Source: a virus
Direction: 5' to 3' (one strand)
Length of the DNA stretch: 29,376 nucleotides
IMG/VR virus record: IMGVR_UViG_3300032893_000226
Location: 1-29,376 of that record
Notes under the pieces: generated by a model
Told to the model about the DNA's origin: nothing
Seen by the model: the letters and a program-made list of their open reading frames with translations, nothing else
Databases searched by the model: none
Program-made: the position numbers and the translations under genes
Shown: in pieces, positions 10,566 through 29,376 of the stretch
Layout of the letters: every line of letters begins with the position of its first letter
How positions within the stretch are numbered: the stretch's first letter is position 1

Positions 10566-11069
10566 ATGGGATACACACACTACTGGTCTTTCAATAAACT
10601 CAAGGGCATAACAGCTGCAGAATTGGAAACAAAGTACTTGCAAGCTTTGGCAGAGTGTAATCGCGTGGCCAGGCATTGGAATACTGAGATTGCTGTCAAA
10701 GGCAGTTCATTGGATTCGCATCGATTGTCGGGATTTTCAGCACATACGGATAAATATGGCGGATTCGAAATTAACGGCAAAGGCGATAACGCGCATGAGA
10801 CATTCTCACTCCGAGAACACTTTAGTGAGAACGAGCCTTCATTCTGCAAGACAGCTAGGAAACCATATGACACTGTCGTAACGGCATGCCTTGCTGTCTT
10901 GAAATACAGGCTCGGCGATGCAATTGACGTTACATCAGACGGCACGGCAGATGATTGGGCTGACGGAGTAATTCTAGCGCGGCATGTCCTCAGTCGAGCC
11001 ATACCGAATCCTATGAATACTTCAGATGAATCTAAACAATTCTACCGCAAATTGAGGTCAGTAAAATGA
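10566..11069 (+). CDS. Phage hypothetical protein of the MGYTHYW type
   Basis: 167 aa beginning MGYTHYWSF, a signature seen in a widespread group of phage proteins of unknown function. A central segment is SAHTDKYGGFEINGKGDNAHETF, and the C-terminal part is helical (YDTVVTACLAVLKYRLGDAIDV). No catalytic motif can be named. Ribosome site GAGG upstream. The stop overlaps the next gene's ATG by four bases, so it is probably coexpressed with the Gp88-like protein. Confidence 0.65.
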   Translation: MGYTHYWSFNKLKGITAAELETKYLQALAECNRVARHWNTEIAVKGSSLDSHRLSGFSAHTDKYGGFEINGKGDNAHETFSLREHFSENEPSFCKTARKPYDTVVTACLAVLKYRLGDAIDVTSDGTADDWADGVILARHVLSRAIPNPMNTSDESKQFYRKLRSVK

Positions 11070-11728
11070 AGACATATAACTGGTTGACACAAAACTCTAA
11101 GATTGCAAAGATGAGCGGCGTGCGTACCTATAACTGGGGAATACCTGCCTACAAGTCAGCAGACGGATTCAAGACATGCCCGAATGCAGCTGCGTGTGCA
11201 AAGGGCTGTTATGCTACTATGGGCGCATATCGATTTAGTAACGTCGCAAAGGTATTCGAGCGCCGTTTAAAGCTTGCCAAGTCTCCACGGTTTGGGATTA
11301 TCATCGACGCTGAAATTAAACGCCGTAAGGTGCAACGGCTTAGGATTCATGACAGCGGTGACTTCTTTAGCCGTGAATATCTTCAGACATGGCTGAATGT
11401 TATCAAAGCGAATCCTGAGACACAGTTCTATGCATATACTAAGATGGTCTCATGGTTCAATGAATTGCGGGCAGACGGATTGATTCCTGAGAACTTCATT
11501 ATCATATACTCATACGGAGGAACACAGGACAAGCTGATTAACCGTGATACTGATAGACACTCATGGGTATTCAGTTCAGTCGAAGCATTGCGGGCAGCAG
11601 GGTATGCCGATGCACATGTCGACGACAGTGTAGCCTTGGGCGACAATCATAAGATAGGCCTCGTATATCATGGTATTAAGTCAATAGAGAACACTGATTG
11701 GCTGAAAGTCAAACAACATACGGTTTAA
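11066..11728 (+). CDS. Gp88-like family protein
   Basis: 220 aa. The N-terminal pattern NSKIAKMSGVRTYNWGIPA, then TCPNAAACAKGCYATMGAY (Cys38, 44 and 48), then RIHDSGDFFSREYLQTWL matches the Gene product 88 family of phage proteins. The Cys cluster, RIHDSGDF and the later HVDDSVALGDN suggest a barrel-like enzyme with a metal or cluster site, but no reaction is known to me. ATGA overlap with the preceding gene and GAGG ribosome site. Cytoplasmic by appearance. Confidence 0.7.
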   Translation: MKTYNWLTQNSKIAKMSGVRTYNWGIPAYKSADGFKTCPNAAACAKGCYATMGAYRFSNVAKVFERRLKLAKSPRFGIIIDAEIKRRKVQRLRIHDSGDFFSREYLQTWLNVIKANPETQFYAYTKMVSWFNELRADGLIPENFIIIYSYGGTQDKLINRDTDRHSWVFSSVEALRAAGYADAHVDDSVALGDNHKIGLVYHGIKSIENTDWLKVKQHTV

Positions 11729-12002: not shown

Positions 12003-12947
12003 ATGACTAAGTACAAATTCACGGGTGAAACAAAGGAATACTCCGGAATCATATTCCGTCGAATCCAAAGGTTGTCAGACAATGTTGTAGGCGGCTGGAT
12101 AGAGTCAGAGAAAAACCTGAGTCGTGAAGGAAGTGCATGGGTATCCGGCGATGCGCTAGTATCCGGCAATGCGCGGGTATCCGGCAATGCGCGGATATCC
12201 GGCAATGCGCTAGTATGTGGCGATGCGCAGGTATCCGGCAATGCGCAGGTATCCGGCAATGCGCTAGTATCCGGCAATGCGCGGGTATCCGGCAATGCGC
12301 AGGTAGACGGCAATGCGCAGGTATTCGGCGATGCGCGGGTAGACGGCAATGTGCGGGTATACGGCGATGCGCGGGTATCCGGTAATGCGCGGGTATTAGG
12401 CAATGCATGGGTATGTGGCGATGCGCTGGTATGCGGCAATGCGCAGGTAAACGGCAATGCGCAGGTATTCGGCGATGCGCGGATATCCGGCAATGCATGG
12501 GTATGCGGCAATGCGCTAGTATGCGGCGATGCGCGGGTATTCGGCAATGCGCAGGTATTCGGCGATGCGCAGGTATCCGGCAATGCGCGGATATCCGGCA
12601 ATGCATGGGTATCCGGCGATGCACGGGTATCCGGCGATGCACGGGTATCCGGCAATGCGCAGGTAGACGGCAATGCGTGGATATCCGGCAATGCACGAAT
12701 ATCTGCTTTAAATCATTGTGTTAACTTTATCATATGTTTTTCATATTCTGTGACAGTCACGCCTGACAATATAGTGATTGGGTGTCTATCAAAATCTCGC
12801 GTTGCCTGGACTAAAGTAACAAAAGAAGAGGTTGTTTCAATGGGATTGCCAAGTGACTTATATCCACATTATATGCAATTAGTTAAGACCGGCATGAAGC
12901 TGGTACCCAGTCGCGCTCAGCTAAATAAGACTATTAAGAAAACTTAA
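12003..12947 (+). CDS. YdcK-like left-handed beta-helix repeat protein, copy A
   Basis: 314 aa. The N-terminus MTKYKFTGETKEY, then GGWIESEKNLSREGSAWV resembles E. coli YdcK and similar phage proteins. About 31 tandem hexapeptides of the form G-[N/D]-A-x-V-x follow (about 45-232), the periodicity of a left-handed parallel beta-helix. Conserved Ala and Val would form the core; the two x positions vary and face outward. The C-terminal 80 residues form a separate domain (VTVTPDNIVIGC). No acyltransferase His loop is visible, so catalysis is doubtful; a surface, binding or DNA-mimic role is possible. Ribosome site GGTGAGG. Confidence 0.75.
   Translation: MTKYKFTGETKEYSGIIFRRIQRLSDNVVGGWIESEKNLSREGSAWVSGDALVSGNARVSGNARISGNALVCGDAQVSGNAQVSGNALVSGNARVSGNAQVDGNAQVFGDARVDGNVRVYGDARVSGNARVLGNAWVCGDALVCGNAQVNGNAQVFGDARISGNAWVCGNALVCGDARVFGNAQVFGDAQVSGNARISGNAWVSGDARVSGDARVSGNAQVDGNAWISGNARISALNHCVNFIICFSYSVTVTPDNIVIGCLSKSRVAWTKVTKEEVVSMGLPSDLYPHYMQLVKTGMKLVPSRAQLNKTIKKT
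12134..12697 (+). repeat. 18 bp tandem repeat array A (coding)
   Basis: About 31 units of GGCAATGCGCAGGTATCC-like sequence. Changes concentrate in three codons (AAT/GAT; CAG, CGG, CTA, TGG; TCC, TAC, TTC, TGC, AAC, GAC) while GGC, GCG and GTA stay fixed even at the third base. Because the unit is 18 bp and stop-free, long shadow frames appear on both strands. Confidence 0.95.
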
Positions 12948-12965
12948 CATTGTCGTCGTATTTCA

Positions 12966-13154
12966 ATGACAGGCTATGAGTACTCTGTGTATATGTACTT
13001 GATTAAGATTCACGGCGAGACCGGTAACGAGTATTTCGAGTTAGTTCTCAATGGCCAGACTGTCGGATATTTTACTAGCTTGGAAGCCCTTGGTGTGGCT
13101 ATTGAAAGTATCAAAGTCTTAATCCAAGGGTATGACCTATTGGAGGCAGCATGA
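12966..13154 (+). CDS. Small hypothetical protein between the repeat paralogues
   Basis: 62 aa, unrecognised: YMYLIKIHGETGNEYFELVLNG is a beta-like half, EALGVAIESIKVLIQGYDLLE a helix. The stop overlaps the ATG of repeat protein B by four bases. The start is uncertain because no strong ribosome site is seen. Confidence 0.5.
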   Translation: MTGYEYSVYMYLIKIHGETGNEYFELVLNGQTVGYFTSLEALGVAIESIKVLIQGYDLLEAA

Positions 13155-14107
13155 AATACAAGTTCACAGGAGAGACAAAGGAATACCTCGGAGTCGTATT
13201 ACATCGCATCCAGCGATTGTCTGACAATGCCTTTGGAGGCTGGATAGAATCAGAGAAAAATCTGAGTCATGAAGGGAATGCGTGGGTATCTGACAATGCG
13301 CAGGTATTCGGCAATGCGCAGGTATCCGGCAATGCGCAGGTATCCGGCAATACGTGGGTATCCGGCAATGCGCAGGTATCCGGCAATACGCAGGTATACG
13401 GCAATGCGCAGGTATTCGGCGATGCGTGGGTATCCGGCGATGCGTGGGTATCCGGCAATGCGCTAGTATCCGGCAATGCGCAGGTATACGGCGATGCGCG
13501 GGTATCCGGCGATGCGCAGGTATACGGCGATGCGCGGGTATCCGGCAATGCGCAGGTATACGGCGATGCGCGGGTATCCGGCAATGCGCAGGTATACGGC
13601 GATGCGTGGGTATTCAACAATGCGCAAGTAAACGGCAATGCGCAGGTATTCGGCGATGCGCAGGTATACGGCGATGCGCAGGTATTCGGCGATGCGTGGG
13701 TATCCGGCAATACGCTAGTATCCGGCAATGCGCAGGTATTCGGCGATGCGTGGGTATTCAACAATGTGCAGGTATACGGCGATGCGCAGGTATTCGGCAA
13801 TGCGCAGGTATACGGCGATGCGCAAGTAAACGGCAATGCGCAGGTATCCGGCGATGCGCAGGTATTCGGCGATGCGCAGGTATCCGGCAATGCGAGAGTA
13901 TCTAATAAATCAGAAATTATTAATGTAATCATGTATCCGCATTCTGTGACTGTGACACCACAGAATATAGTAATCGGTTGTCAACTACGTAGCAGGTTTG
14001 GCAAAGACCAGTGGACTAGTAAAGACAAGGACGCTAATAGCAATTTAGTGAAAATCTATAGGCCTTTATTGACGGCTTTGAAAAAGCAGGTGAAACGTCG
14101 ACGCTAA
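13151..14107 (+). CDS. YdcK-like left-handed beta-helix repeat protein, copy B
   Basis: 318 aa paralogue of the gene at 12003, with nearly the same N-terminal domain (KYKFTGETKEY, GGWIESEKNLSHEGNAWV), about 34 hexapeptides of G-[N/D]-A-x-V-x type, and a related C-terminus (VTVTPQNIVIGCQ) that ends in a basic KKQVKRRR. Copy B uses mainly S, Y and F at the last position of the unit, copy A a wider set. The two probably arose by duplication and diverged; their repeats are similar enough to recombine. TTGGAGG ribosome site. A perfect hairpin follows the stop. Confidence 0.75.
   Translation: MKYKFTGETKEYLGVVLHRIQRLSDNAFGGWIESEKNLSHEGNAWVSDNAQVFGNAQVSGNAQVSGNTWVSGNAQVSGNTQVYGNAQVFGDAWVSGDAWVSGNALVSGNAQVYGDARVSGDAQVYGDARVSGNAQVYGDARVSGNAQVYGDAWVFNNAQVNGNAQVFGDAQVYGDAQVFGDAWVSGNTLVSGNAQVFGDAWVFNNVQVYGDAQVFGNAQVYGDAQVNGNAQVSGDAQVFGDAQVSGNARVSNKSEIINVIMYPHSVTVTPQNIVIGCQLRSRFGKDQWTSKDKDANSNLVKIYRPLLTALKKQVKRRR
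13276..13905 (+). repeat. 18 bp tandem repeat array B (coding)
   Basis: About 34-35 units, same consensus as array A. Two interruptions read FNNAQV and FNNVQV (around 13610 and 13755), themselves similar, which shows duplication of larger blocks and not just single units. Confidence 0.95.
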
Positions 14108-18554: not shown

Positions 18555-18675
18555 TTACCTCCACACCCACATGACTTTAGGAGTAGCCGTGCAATATTTT
18601 TCTATACCATTAGCGGCGTTAAACCAATGAACTGTTATCCAGTTTAATGGGCGGAAGAATAAACGAGAACTTCAT
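18555..18675 (-). CDS. Small gene apparently needing a +1 frameshift
   Basis: The ATG (18675) overlaps the HldC stop (ATGA) and has AAGGAG 6 bases upstream, so translation should begin here. The zero frame (MKFSFILPPIKLDNSSLV) stops after 18 codons at 18619. The +1 frame stays open from just after the start to TAA at 18557-18555 and reads PLNWITVHWFNAANGIEKY, then CTATPKVMWVWR, ending 4 bases from the convergent gene. A +1 slip at CCC-A or at GTT-TAA would give about 39-41 aa. It is either a programmed shift or a one-base mutation or assembly error in a real small gene. Confidence 0.45.
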
Positions 18676-19076
18676 GGCGTACTCCTTATCTTACTAATCA
18701 ACTCAGTAGTAGAATATCCTGGAATCCTAGAAAAGTACCGAATCTCTCCTCCCCACGAGGCCAATAGACCATCCTCAACTGTGTTTTTATGTTCCCAATC
18801 CGAGCCTTTGACGTGTACTTGCGGTTGGATGTTCTTCAAGACTGCTGAAAGGTCATTGAACATCATCACCCTGTCTACACACCTAAGGGCCAGGATTTGA
18901 TTGACCCTGGTAAAGGCATCTTGAATTGGCCTAGACGGCCCCTTGAGCATTCGCACTGATTCATCGGAATTCACGAGGACCCACAGTTCGTCTCCCTGCT
19001 GCTTGGCAAACTCCAGGAGACGGATATGCCCGATGTGTAATAAGTCAAAGCATCCGTTTGTCGTGACGATTTTCAT
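18672..19076 (-). CDS. hldC: D-glycero-beta-D-manno-heptose 1-phosphate adenylyltransferase (HldC/HldE C-domain)
   Basis: 134 aa nucleotidyltransferase equal to the C-terminal domain of HldE/RfaE. TTNGCFDLLHIGHIRLL holds the HxGH nucleotide-binding motif (H14, H17). VNSDESVRMLKGPSRPI (about 35-51), VKGSDW (89-94) and the C-terminal STTELISKI are characteristic. It activates heptose-1-phosphate with ATP to ADP-heptose, the last enzyme before the epimerase. As a separate gene it corresponds to HldC of split pathways. It overlaps gmhA (ATGA) and is followed by the frameshifted small gene. Confidence in the family is high; the natural sugar is inferred from neighbours. Confidence 0.92.
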   Translation of the reverse strand: MKIVTTNGCFDLLHIGHIRLLEFAKQQGDELWVLVNSDESVRMLKGPSRPIQDAFTRVNQILALRCVDRVMMFNDLSAVLKNIQPQVHVKGSDWEHKNTVEDGLLASWGGEIRYFSRIPGYSTTELISKIRSTP

Positions 19077-19675
19077 TCGTACAGTTCCGGAAAAAGATCG
19101 CGCTCAATAAGCTCGACTAATAAGTGCAATGTAAACATCTGAAGCTCTTGAATACGATCAGAAGTCTTACCAGGAAAAACAAGTCCATCTCTGACCATAT
19201 TTAGCAACGCCCCGCCGCCTTTACCCAACAAAGCCACAGTTTGCATATCCTGCTCTTGCGCCGACGCCAAAGTCTGTTTAAGGTTTGGTGATTGCCCGCT
19301 GGTCGACAGCAATAGGAGGACATCGCCTGATTTACCAAATGCACGGACCTGTCGATCAAATACCAATCGTTCTCCGTAGTCGTTACTGACACAGCTTGCG
19401 TGCGTCGCCTCGCCTAATGCAATTGCAGCCAGTGGTCTACGGTCCTTGCGAAACCGACCAGTCAATTCTTCAGCGAAATGAAGAGCCGAGCAGTGACTGC
19501 CTCCGTTGCCTGCTATGAGGATCTTACCTCCAGACTTCAGACAATCTGCCAGTATGGTACCAATCTTTGTGATCTTCTGCCTGAAGTCTGGACTTTTGAA
19601 ACACTCCCAGTTGTCCTGAGAATCCAAGAAAGCCTTTGCTACATAATCTATAGAATTATCCACAGAGTTATTCAT
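19073..19675 (-). CDS. gmhA: Phosphoheptose isomerase GmhA
   Basis: 200 aa SIS-fold enzyme converting sedoheptulose-7-phosphate to D-glycero-D-manno-heptose-7-phosphate. AGNGGSHCSALHFAEELTGRF (about 55-75) carries the sugar-phosphate site and H66/E70. STSGQSPN (124-131) and SDRIQELQMFTLHLL with Q176 and H184 complete the zinc/catalytic set known for GmhA, so the enzyme should be active. Length is as usual for the family (about 190-200). It lies between hldA and hldC with four-base overlaps on both sides, so the three proteins are made together. Confidence 0.95.
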   Translation of the reverse strand: MNNSVDNSIDYVAKAFLDSQDNWECFKSPDFRQKITKIGTILADCLKSGGKILIAGNGGSHCSALHFAEELTGRFRKDRRPLAAIALGEATHASCVSNDYGERLVFDRQVRAFGKSGDVLLLLSTSGQSPNLKQTLASAQEQDMQTVALLGKGGGALLNMVRDGLVFPGKTSDRIQELQMFTLHLLVELIERDLFPELYE

Positions 19676-20616
19676 TTTTCTCCTCTATTGATAACAGATG
19701 ACAACAGGCCCTCAATAGTGACAGTCGCAGGACCTGGCTTCTGGACTGCCAATGACCCTGCTTTGTTGGCCAGCCTAGCTGAGTCTTTGAACGAATTGCC
19801 TTTTAAAAGACTCAAAGTCAGCGCAGCCATCGTAGTATCTCCAGCACCTGTGACATCAACAGGACTAGAAACAGGAATCGCAGAATAATGGATGTGATTA
19901 AAAATCATCCCGCTAGGGCCTAGCGTTAAAGCAATCAAAGCTCCAGTGCGGTTGTTGAGTTCTCGGCTCATGTCTAAGACTTTGTGACATTCAAAAGACG
20001 TCATCTCATTTGCTTCTTTAAGATTAGGTTTAATTAAATACGCACCGCGATAATCTTCTGGTTTTCGACCACGATAAGGATCTACAAAGACTTTTTTATT
20101 AATGGACTCGCAGTGCGATAAGAAGTAACTGAGGACTCGGCCAGTCCACAACCCTTTGCCATAGTCTTGGAGTAAGACTGCGTCATATCTAGCGACGTGA
20201 TCACACAGTAATGACACAAACTGTGTCTCTACATCGGAGGCCAGGGGCTGTGTGGACTCATAGTCCAGTCTTGCTATTTGTTGGTCGTTGCATATAATCC
20301 GCTGCTTCAGCGTCTTTCGTCTCGAATCATCAGTGACATACGCCAAACTGCTGCCAGTCAATAAGTCTTGGAAGGCACCTATTGAATGGCCGTAGCCGCC
20401 CATGACGGTAAATAGCCTGGATCTGGCACCAAGAGAATCGATGTTATTTGCTAGATTTCCAGTCATGCCCGCATATCTAGTGACTTCGATGTCACTCACA
20501 ACAGGCACATCACATTCGGGAGACCTACGGGTCGAAGTACCTGAGACGTACTCATCGATACCTACTTCACCTGCGATCATGACATTCAAGTCTGAGAAAT
20601 CTAGTCTCAAGCTCAT
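19672..20616 (-). CDS. hldA: D-glycero-beta-D-manno-heptose-7-phosphate kinase (HldA/HldE N-domain)
   Basis: 314 aa PfkB-family sugar kinase equal to the N-terminal domain of HldE/RfaE. GMTGNLANNIDSLGA (about 50-64) is the first PfkB signature, QDYGKGLWTG (150-159) and LIKPNLKEANEMT (194-206) are typical of heptose kinases, and SPVDVTGAGDTTMAAL (251-266) carries the anion hole and catalytic Asp260. It phosphorylates C1 of heptose-7-phosphate; a GmhB phosphatase is then needed before HldC, and none is seen here. It overlaps gmhA and the upstream zinc-ribbon gene. Host HldE is a fusion of this and HldC; the phage keeps them split. Confidence 0.9.
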   Translation of the reverse strand: MSLRLDFSDLNVMIAGEVGIDEYVSGTSTRRSPECDVPVVSDIEVTRYAGMTGNLANNIDSLGARSRLFTVMGGYGHSIGAFQDLLTGSSLAYVTDDSRRKTLKQRIICNDQQIARLDYESTQPLASDVETQFVSLLCDHVARYDAVLLQDYGKGLWTGRVLSYFLSHCESINKKVFVDPYRGRKPEDYRGAYLIKPNLKEANEMTSFECHKVLDMSRELNNRTGALIALTLGPSGMIFNHIHYSAIPVSSPVDVTGAGDTTMAALTLSLLKGNSFKDSARLANKAGSLAVQKPGPATVTIEGLLSSVINRGEK

Positions 20617-25795: not shown

Positions 25796-26827
25796 GTGGC
25801 TACGATCCAAAAACCTAATAATTTACCGCTGGACCCTCGAGGGATCCTTGGTGTACCTGCGCACATGGTTCCCTCGTTCAGGACTTGCAAAGCTGCTGAG
25901 AATAACGCTCAGATGAACGTCCTTATCAAAGCCCATGGCGGAGTAGGAGACGTAGTCTGTAGTGAACCGGCGATGCGGTTCGCAGTCGAGAACTTCAAGA
26001 ACTCAAATTTCTCACTGTTGAGTCCTTATCCGCAACTTTTCCGCCATATTCCCTGGAAAAAAGTTTATGACAACTCCGGACCTGTGGAAATAGATCTCAA
26101 CCAGTACTTGATGTTCCAGACGATTGATGTCACTAACGAATTGGCTGCCGAGTTCGTCTGTCATGCCATCATGGGCGGTGTTGATTATGCGGGACTGAAT
26201 ATGTGGCGTTTGATATTACCAAACGCCTATAAACGAATCCAGCTCTACCCCAATGAACAGGAGACACAGCGTGCAGTGGAGATACATCAAGACCGTGACA
26301 TTGTCGTACACCCAGGCCGGACCTGGCCTAGCCGGACTTTTCCAAAGAAATGGTGGGACAGGGTCATTGGCCGTATTATCGAAAAGGGCGGAAGACCACT
26401 TGTTATCGGCGGCGTCATCGACGCAGGCCGTGCTAGTACCGTCGAAGTGGACCTCCCAACAGGGGTCCTTGATTTACGGCACAAGCAGACGCTTATGGAA
26501 ACGGTTGCATTGATGCATAAGACTGTTGCTGTCATTACCAACGACTCTAGTCCTGTCCACATGGCCAGTACCGGTCCGAGCTGGATTGCTTACCTGAGTA
26601 CAGTCAAGCATCCTGACCATCTTACTCATTGGCGCAGGACTGACAAAGGTGTTGATGAATACGGCTGGAGAATGAAGGACTTTGCTTTGGGAGGTTTGTA
26701 TAAGGAGTTGGATTTCTGTCCCAACAGTCCTAAGAACATCCATGTAGACAAAGTAGACATCCTACAGCTTCTGAAATGGCTTCCTGAACCTGAAGAGATC
26801 GCCGACTGGGTAGTGAGTAAACTATAA
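25796..26827 (+). CDS. GT9-family glycosyltransferase (heptosyltransferase-like)
   Basis: 343 aa. GT-B fold of the GT9/ADP-heptose:LPS heptosyltransferase type: N-terminal VLIKAHGGVGDVVCSEPAM (42-60), central VVHPGRTWPSRTFPKKWW (170-187), GGRPLVIGG (198-206), and VALMHKTVAVITNDSSPVHMAS (237-258) where other members have a D/N-x-x-x-x-H motif for the donor. No membrane segment. GTG start with TAGGAG. With HldA, GmhA and HldC in the same phage, the donor may be ADP-heptose, and the acceptor may be LPS core or a phage product. Donor specificity cannot be read from sequence alone. Confidence 0.85.
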   Translation: MATIQKPNNLPLDPRGILGVPAHMVPSFRTCKAAENNAQMNVLIKAHGGVGDVVCSEPAMRFAVENFKNSNFSLLSPYPQLFRHIPWKKVYDNSGPVEIDLNQYLMFQTIDVTNELAAEFVCHAIMGGVDYAGLNMWRLILPNAYKRIQLYPNEQETQRAVEIHQDRDIVVHPGRTWPSRTFPKKWWDRVIGRIIEKGGRPLVIGGVIDAGRASTVEVDLPTGVLDLRHKQTLMETVALMHKTVAVITNDSSPVHMASTGPSWIAYLSTVKHPDHLTHWRRTDKGVDEYGWRMKDFALGGLYKELDFCPNSPKNIHVDKVDILQLLKWLPEPEEIADWVVSKL

Positions 26828-29232: not shown

Positions 29233-29376
29233 ATCGATTTTTCTCCAGACACCGACCACGACCCCGACCACGGCCCCGACCGCGACCACGACCTCGACCA
29301 CGACCCCGACCACGACCACGACCTCGACCCTGACCCCGGCCACGACCCCGACCACGACCACGACCGCGACCCAGAC
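29201..29376 (-). CDS. C-terminal end of a Gly-Arg repeat protein, start outside window
   Basis: A minus-strand frame enters the window open and reads about 20 Gly-Arg pairs (one Gly-Gln), then CLEKNRYETVSTHGRL and TGA at 29203-29201. In this frame nearly all differences among the 6 bp units fall on the third codon base (CGC, CGT, CGG, CGA; GGT, GGC), so the Gly-Arg sequence itself seems to be kept. (GR)n tails bind RNA or DNA. It overlaps the next gene's start by 32 bases. The opposite strand can be read as a Thr/Pro/Ala/Ser linker, a weaker alternative. Confidence 0.45.
   Translation of the reverse strand, partial: LGRGRGRGRGRGRGQGRGRGRGRGRGRGRGRGRGRGRGRGRCLEKNRYETVSTHGRL
29252..29376. repeat. 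6 bp tandem repeat, about 20 units
   Basis: Plus-strand unit CGACCN. The sixth base takes all four values; other positions hardly change (CGGCC twice, TGACC once). Extends to or past the window edge. Confidence 0.95.

Follow-up and report, generated by a model that had tools for sequence, protein, structure and literature searches.

Twin phage genes encoding YdcK-like beta-solenoid proteins with 18-bp repeat arrays that behave as a fast-evolving surface

Solenoid proteins in which a fixed framework carries variable outward residues are known from variable lymphocyte receptors and from designed repeat-protein binders. To the phage proteins described here these are analogues in the way they work, without homology, and they differ in that the phage proteins have no dedicated assembly machinery and no demonstrated ligand. 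Homologues are found in the YdcK family (PF18836; NF040481; Salmonella YdcK, 2f9c/2pig), which shares with them the hexapeptide solenoid and a related N-terminal part; the repeats of E. coli ydcK are diverged and static, however, whereas the phage units are near-identical in DNA and the phage proteins fall below the NF040481 cut-off. The families phrog_5070 and phrog_7964 give a strong match and comprise homologues in phages of Streptococcus, Bacillus, Vibrio, Xanthomonas and others, although PHROGs records no function for them and the present locus has two tandem copies. YdcK-like solenoids are widespread in phages without a known role, and the literature searched, in which no title concerned YdcK itself, bears out an earlier note on this DNA where it says that such proteins lack a firm function; a search, mostly of non-subscription journals, for work on phage beta-solenoids, hexapeptide proteins and anti-defence yielded nothing relevant. 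A further parallel is provided by the ankyrin-repeat genes of Wolbachia, which are linked to phage transfer, change size via short direct repeats and intragenic recombination, and are thought to act in protein-protein contacts (PMC3563639). This likeness again concerns only the way of working, as the fold is unrelated and the genes are not homologous.

We analysed a virus record of 29,376 nt (about 29.4 kb), referred to as the window, in which terminase, portal, major head protein and DNA polymerase genes are present. The twin genes, A and B, lie head to tail, with a GP88-family gene on the 5' side and a 176-aa gene followed by the terminase on the 3' side (Table 1). Each begins with an N-cap roughly 44 residues long, which is followed by an indel-free array and then by a C-cap. 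Tandem Repeats Finder placed the 18-bp arrays at 12139-12694 in A (30.9 copies, score 657) and at 13277-13894 in B (34.3 copies, score 753), and in-frame counting gave 31 and 34 units, each within one intact ORF, so that the earlier description of two paralogues with more than 30 near-identical units apiece is borne out. The large minus-strand ORFs that overlie both arrays are by-products of the repeats.

Table 1. Features of the twin-gene locus (positions in the window)
Feature	Positions	Strand	Remarks
GP88-family gene upstream of the twins	11066..11728	+	also beside an array gene in loci L311, L124 and L031
ORF A, 314 aa, YdcK-like beta-solenoid protein	12003..12947	+	intact ORF; PF18836 E 1e-40; phrog_7964 E 2e-95
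A N-cap, YdcK type	12003..12137	+	GGWIESEKNLS motif
A array	12138..12695	+	31 units of 18 bp, x1-V-x2-G-N/D-A
A C-cap	12696..12947	+	SVTVTPDNIVIGC motif; closest relative in locus L083
62-aa ORF between the twins	12966..13154	+	no family match
ORF B, 318 aa, YdcK-like beta-solenoid protein	13151..14107	+	intact ORF; PF18836 E 4e-40; phrog_5070 E 7e-118; PDB 2f9c E 1e-18
B N-cap	13151..13282	+	34/43 residues and 5/12 four-fold silent sites identical to A
B array	13283..13894	+	34 units of 18 bp
B C-cap	13895..14107	+	SVTVTPQNIVIGC motif; closest relatives in loci L311 and L124

Judged by homology, A and B are YdcK-type left-handed beta-helix (hexapeptide solenoid) proteins with predicted N- and C-caps. 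PF18836, the YdcK solenoid model, scored 134.5 bits with A and 132.5 with B against a gathering cut-off of 30, the matches of the twins to phrog_7964 and phrog_5070 had E-values of about 1e-81 to 1e-118, and phmmer aligned residues 23-219 of B with residues 38-215 of Salmonella YdcK (E 9.6e-19), an alignment that reaches into the N-cap. As the scores with the equivalog model NF040481 (93.1 and 97.8 bits) lie below its cut-off of 350, we regard both as YdcK-like rather than as orthologues of cellular YdcK. The assignment of the fold leans on this homology because the quality of two AlphaFold models was insufficient for the purpose (mean pLDDT 47.5 and 65.3): they have a strand every six residues, at low confidence, and the better one ranked YdcK first among PDB entries at a non-significant E of 0.075.

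The earlier note had described Gly, Ala and Val codons frozen to the third base and two outward codons that vary. For Val the freezing is complete, with GTA at 27/27 codons in A and 34/34 in B (61/61 in total), and GGC (30/31 Gly codons in A and all 31 in B) and GCG (24 Ala codons in A, 30/30 in B) dominate; A is nevertheless less strictly frozen than B, having six GCA and four Ile ATA codons, and B has a few changes of Gly to Asn or Asp and of Ala to Thr or Val. Likewise, x1 (Q/R/W/L; CAG, CGG, TGG, CTA) and x2 (S/F/Y/C/N/D; TCC, TTC, TAC, TGC, AAC, GAC, with TTA once) vary as described, but a third codon, N/D (AAT/GAT), varies too. We ruled out codon bias of the phage as the source of the frozen codons, because outside the arrays the window uses GTA for 19% of Val, GGC for 38% of Gly and GCG for 18% of Ala; at that usage 61/61 GTA has a chance of about 1e-44. 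The arrays were also rejected as targets of a diversity-generating retroelement, since the changes are not confined to the base A and no reverse transcriptase was found among the window proteins searched, in a record that may be a fragment.

Recombination between the two arrays, which the earlier note had proposed alongside recombination within them, fared less clearly. The arrays of A and B share their silent consensus codons, with 92% identity at four-fold sites, compared with the low silent identity of N-caps that are well conserved in protein (Table 1); this difference suggests exchange between the arrays, although it rests on few independent sites. Against it, multi-unit blocks shared by A and B were not in excess over chance, which rules out block exchange as a visible signal. 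At other loci with twins, most caps are too recently duplicated to inform on exchange.

To place these patterns in the wider family, 257 distinct related arrays were gathered by a protein search and by scanning viral and genome contigs with a codon-neutral pattern. Third-base entropy was 0.3-0.4 bit within arrays and 0.65-1.8 between them (1.5-1.8 bit at the four-fold sites of Val, Gly and Ala), and the consensus Val codon was GTG in 102 arrays, GTC in 89, GTT in 34 and GTA in 32. Within arrays, diversity at the middle base of x2, the first and middle bases of x1 and the first base of N/D was 3.5-4.0 times that at four-fold silent sites, x1 and x2 alone being sampled free of the bias of the pattern search, which demands Val and G-N/D-A. 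Bases of outward residues exceeded silent sites in 223-244 of the 257 arrays (p<1e-37). In the most homogeneous arrays 95% of the units have S/Y/F/C at x2, a set that corresponds essentially to the TNY codon box; in the most diverged arrays the share is 74%, and that of Thr has risen from 0.5% to 4.5%. In a 30-unit array of Curvibacter phage P26059A (L289:4971-5936), every Asp codon is GAC and every Asn codon AAT; such alleles with a linked silent difference are a sign of old unit types that have been reshuffled.

Turnover of the arrays could be followed in relatives whose surroundings have hardly changed. In the S. thermophilus phages SFi19, SFi18 and CHPC919 the arrays are equal in length and unlike in unit order, with 10-14 nt changed in the 327-bp array, whereas the 1500 bp that follow it differ at 2-3 nt and the 300 bp before it are the same; of the changed array codons 7-11 are nonsynonymous and 0-1 synonymous. 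Five phages of V. breoganii have five different arrays, yet are identical at 1491-1500 of 1500 downstream bases. Pairs of loci with identical flanks differ by multi-unit blocks and have 22 and 14 units (L058/L079), 28 and 16 (L006/L027), and 17 and 14 (L014/L020, where the comparison is cut by a contig end). Short-read assembly can collapse or misjoin repeats, which may affect any of the records compared here. In a set of 141 arrays with 15 or more units, repeated two-unit blocks numbered 377 against 161.5 expected and three-unit blocks 130 against 19.7, so that duplication of multi-unit blocks is 2-7 times commoner than chance; in the window alone the same test reached a marginal p=0.03 for A, and for B it showed no significance. 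As a cellular control, ydcK is static across E. coli: it was found at 80% coverage or more in 5353 of 5426 genomes, nearly all listed copies being full length at 97-100% identity, and it has little 18-bp periodicity (0.32 vs 0.82). No DNA match to array B was found in E. coli genomes. In related phages the repeat block is rearranged far faster than the surrounding DNA, almost only at surface-facing residues, and the comparison of unit number and order shows arrays that differ between isolates. On these grounds, namely order and length that differ between identical flanks, duplicated blocks and the excess diversity of outward codons, we regard as supported the earlier view that within-array recombination varies the surface.

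Two side observations concern the labelling and spread of such genes. The deposited records of the V. breoganii phages (L285, L286, L291, L292 and L293) list the solenoid array under CRISPR spacers, an apparent annotation error due to the repeats. The Bartonella tribocorum plasmids L280 and L281 also carry the family; on pBT01 five YdcK-like genes, their repeats diverged, stand in tandem upstream of repC, and the homologue of pBT01 in strain BM1374166 is 1567 bp shorter, with fewer YdcK-like genes listed.

The array gene is found at different places in relatives of the phage group: in L311 it lies two genes downstream of GP88 and has a B-like C-cap, in L124 array genes flank a hypothetical gene plus GP88, and in L083 it adjoins head genes on the other strand. 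A terminase search for close relatives found nothing. In S. thermophilus phages the array gene has a Cro-like gene and a small ORF on one side and a Mu Gam-like gene on the other; in phage 858 this site exists but is empty. We sampled 110 neighbouring ORFs on viral contigs. In the top-25 lists, families with a name were mostly repressors, exonucleases, methyltransferases and integrases, and no head or tail family occurred there. Because of the empty site in phage 858 and the early or regulatory character of the neighbours, the evidence points to the array genes being dispensable, probably early, intracellular cargo.

We propose that A and B are phage cargo proteins with a solenoid surface that is diversified by recombinational shuffling and that probably binds an intracellular factor of the host or of a rival, a reading that we consider to have an even chance of being correct. 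Each 18-bp unit would form one side of the helix and, as judged from the known hexapeptide fold, Val and Ala would point inward, while x1 and x2, which flank the Val, and the N/D turn would point outward. The near-identity of unit DNA would allow intra-array recombination or slippage to duplicate, delete and re-order blocks, a process that we infer from the outcome seen in relatives. Such reshuffling would homogenise the silent bases, yet at the surface a small set of alleles (Q/R/W/L; S/Y/F/C; N/D) persists, and this persistence would argue for selection that favours a mixed and changing surface. Action inside the infected cell seems most likely because the genes are dispensable and lie among early and accessory genes; there the protein would block or bind, via its long flat faces, a varying factor of the host, a prophage or a competing phage. 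Of the two roles suggested in the earlier note, adaptable binding by the putative surfaces of A and B is plausible, whereas mimicry is unsupported, as no clue to it was found.

It is possible, if in our view unlikely, that the arrays are instead neutral, unstable minisatellites, which slippage expands and shuffles and in which the solenoid tolerates any exposed residue, so that the surface has no adaptive role. Such a reading would accommodate the gene being missing from most relatives in the sampled stretch (it is present in 1/15 capsid and 2/80 GP88 relatives), the broader x2 alphabet of older, more diverged arrays, and the broken arrays of some isolates. In two of the five V. breoganii phages the gene carries in-frame stops (1.139.B, L293:1763-2566) or a frameshift (1.209.O, L292:1728-2515) and, unless these are sequencing errors, it looks dispensable there; the broken copies fit weak selection as well as diversifying selection. 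Speaking against neutrality, surface sites are more diverse than four-fold silent sites in almost all arrays, whereas homogenisation is blind to coding effect and neutrality therefore predicts equality at most, and the frame and caps are intact in the window and in most relatives examined. The simplest reading of the excess is selection that keeps a mixed surface, although it could in principle stem from unequal mutation rates.

The remaining alternatives fare worse. A bactofilin-like polymer, which would scaffold something in the infected cell and in which array length would set the length of a filament or spacer, strikes us as improbable: PF04519 scores 44.0 and 45.1 against a gathering score of 27.9 and some homologues are annotated as 'polymer-forming cytoskeletal', but on the same residues the score of the YdcK solenoid model is roughly threefold greater, the conserved cap at either end would be expected to hinder end-to-end stacking, and surface diversity above silent diversity is left unexplained. 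Beta-solenoids also occur in phage fibres, and the repeats weakly match tail fibre and baseplate PHROGs, as might be expected if A and B were virion-associated or structural parts of a fibre, tail or baseplate that vary in length and surface to match receptors; these matches, however, are confined to the repeats and fall far short of those to the YdcK-like PHROGs, the neighbours are early or regulatory (the Cro-like and Mu Gam-like genes, for example), and the gene changes position among related phages or can be missing, which makes this reading more improbable still. An enzyme of the hexapeptide superfamily, either an acyl/acetyltransferase or gamma-carbonic-anhydrase-like, is suggested by homologue records labelled 'putative acyltransferase' or 'trimeric LpxA-like' and by weak LpxA, GlmU and PaaY profile matches, but these are all far below curated cut-offs and neither array contains any His, so that the helix lacks a His for catalysis or for zinc; an acyltransferase was rejected on this ground, and an enzyme of any such kind is highly improbable. 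A one-faced, ice-binding beta-helix was rejected as well: identity of outward residues at lag 3 was 0.97 (x1) and 1.00 (x2) of expectation over the array set, and for want of such a ladder no single face of the solenoid appears special.

To return to the proposed recombination-diversified binder, what is new is a YdcK-like solenoid that behaves as a fast-evolving surface. As a natural case of recombination together with apparent diversifying selection on a protein made of repeats it is unusually clean, and genes now labelled 'hypothetical protein', 'acyltransferase' or 'CRISPR' become a testable class of cargo genes in which only the surface is diverse and silent sites are homogenised. Binding to the host or to rivals is where the function of YdcK-like solenoids should be sought. 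More speculatively, and with a good deal less confidence than we have in the reading for A and B, tailed phages of many hosts may share a common, enzyme-free means of diversification, in which the near-identity of 18-bp coding units would allow the outward side of a putative beta-solenoid binder to be reassorted by ordinary recombination; its permitted Y/S/F/C and W/R/Q residues resemble the contact residues of antibodies, and it would be selected to track changing intracellular targets such as host defence or the proteins of competing phages.

Elsewhere in the window, a hexamer repeat, CGACCA, of about 20 copies occupies the end (29253-29371), within a low-complexity, Val-rich minus-strand ORF. 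Genes for a PfkB kinase, a SIS-domain isomerase-like protein (GmhA-like) and a cytidylyltransferase in a row, together with a GT9 heptosyltransferase-like gene (18672-20616, minus strand, and 25796-26827, plus strand), form a set resembling phage-carried ADP-heptose synthesis.
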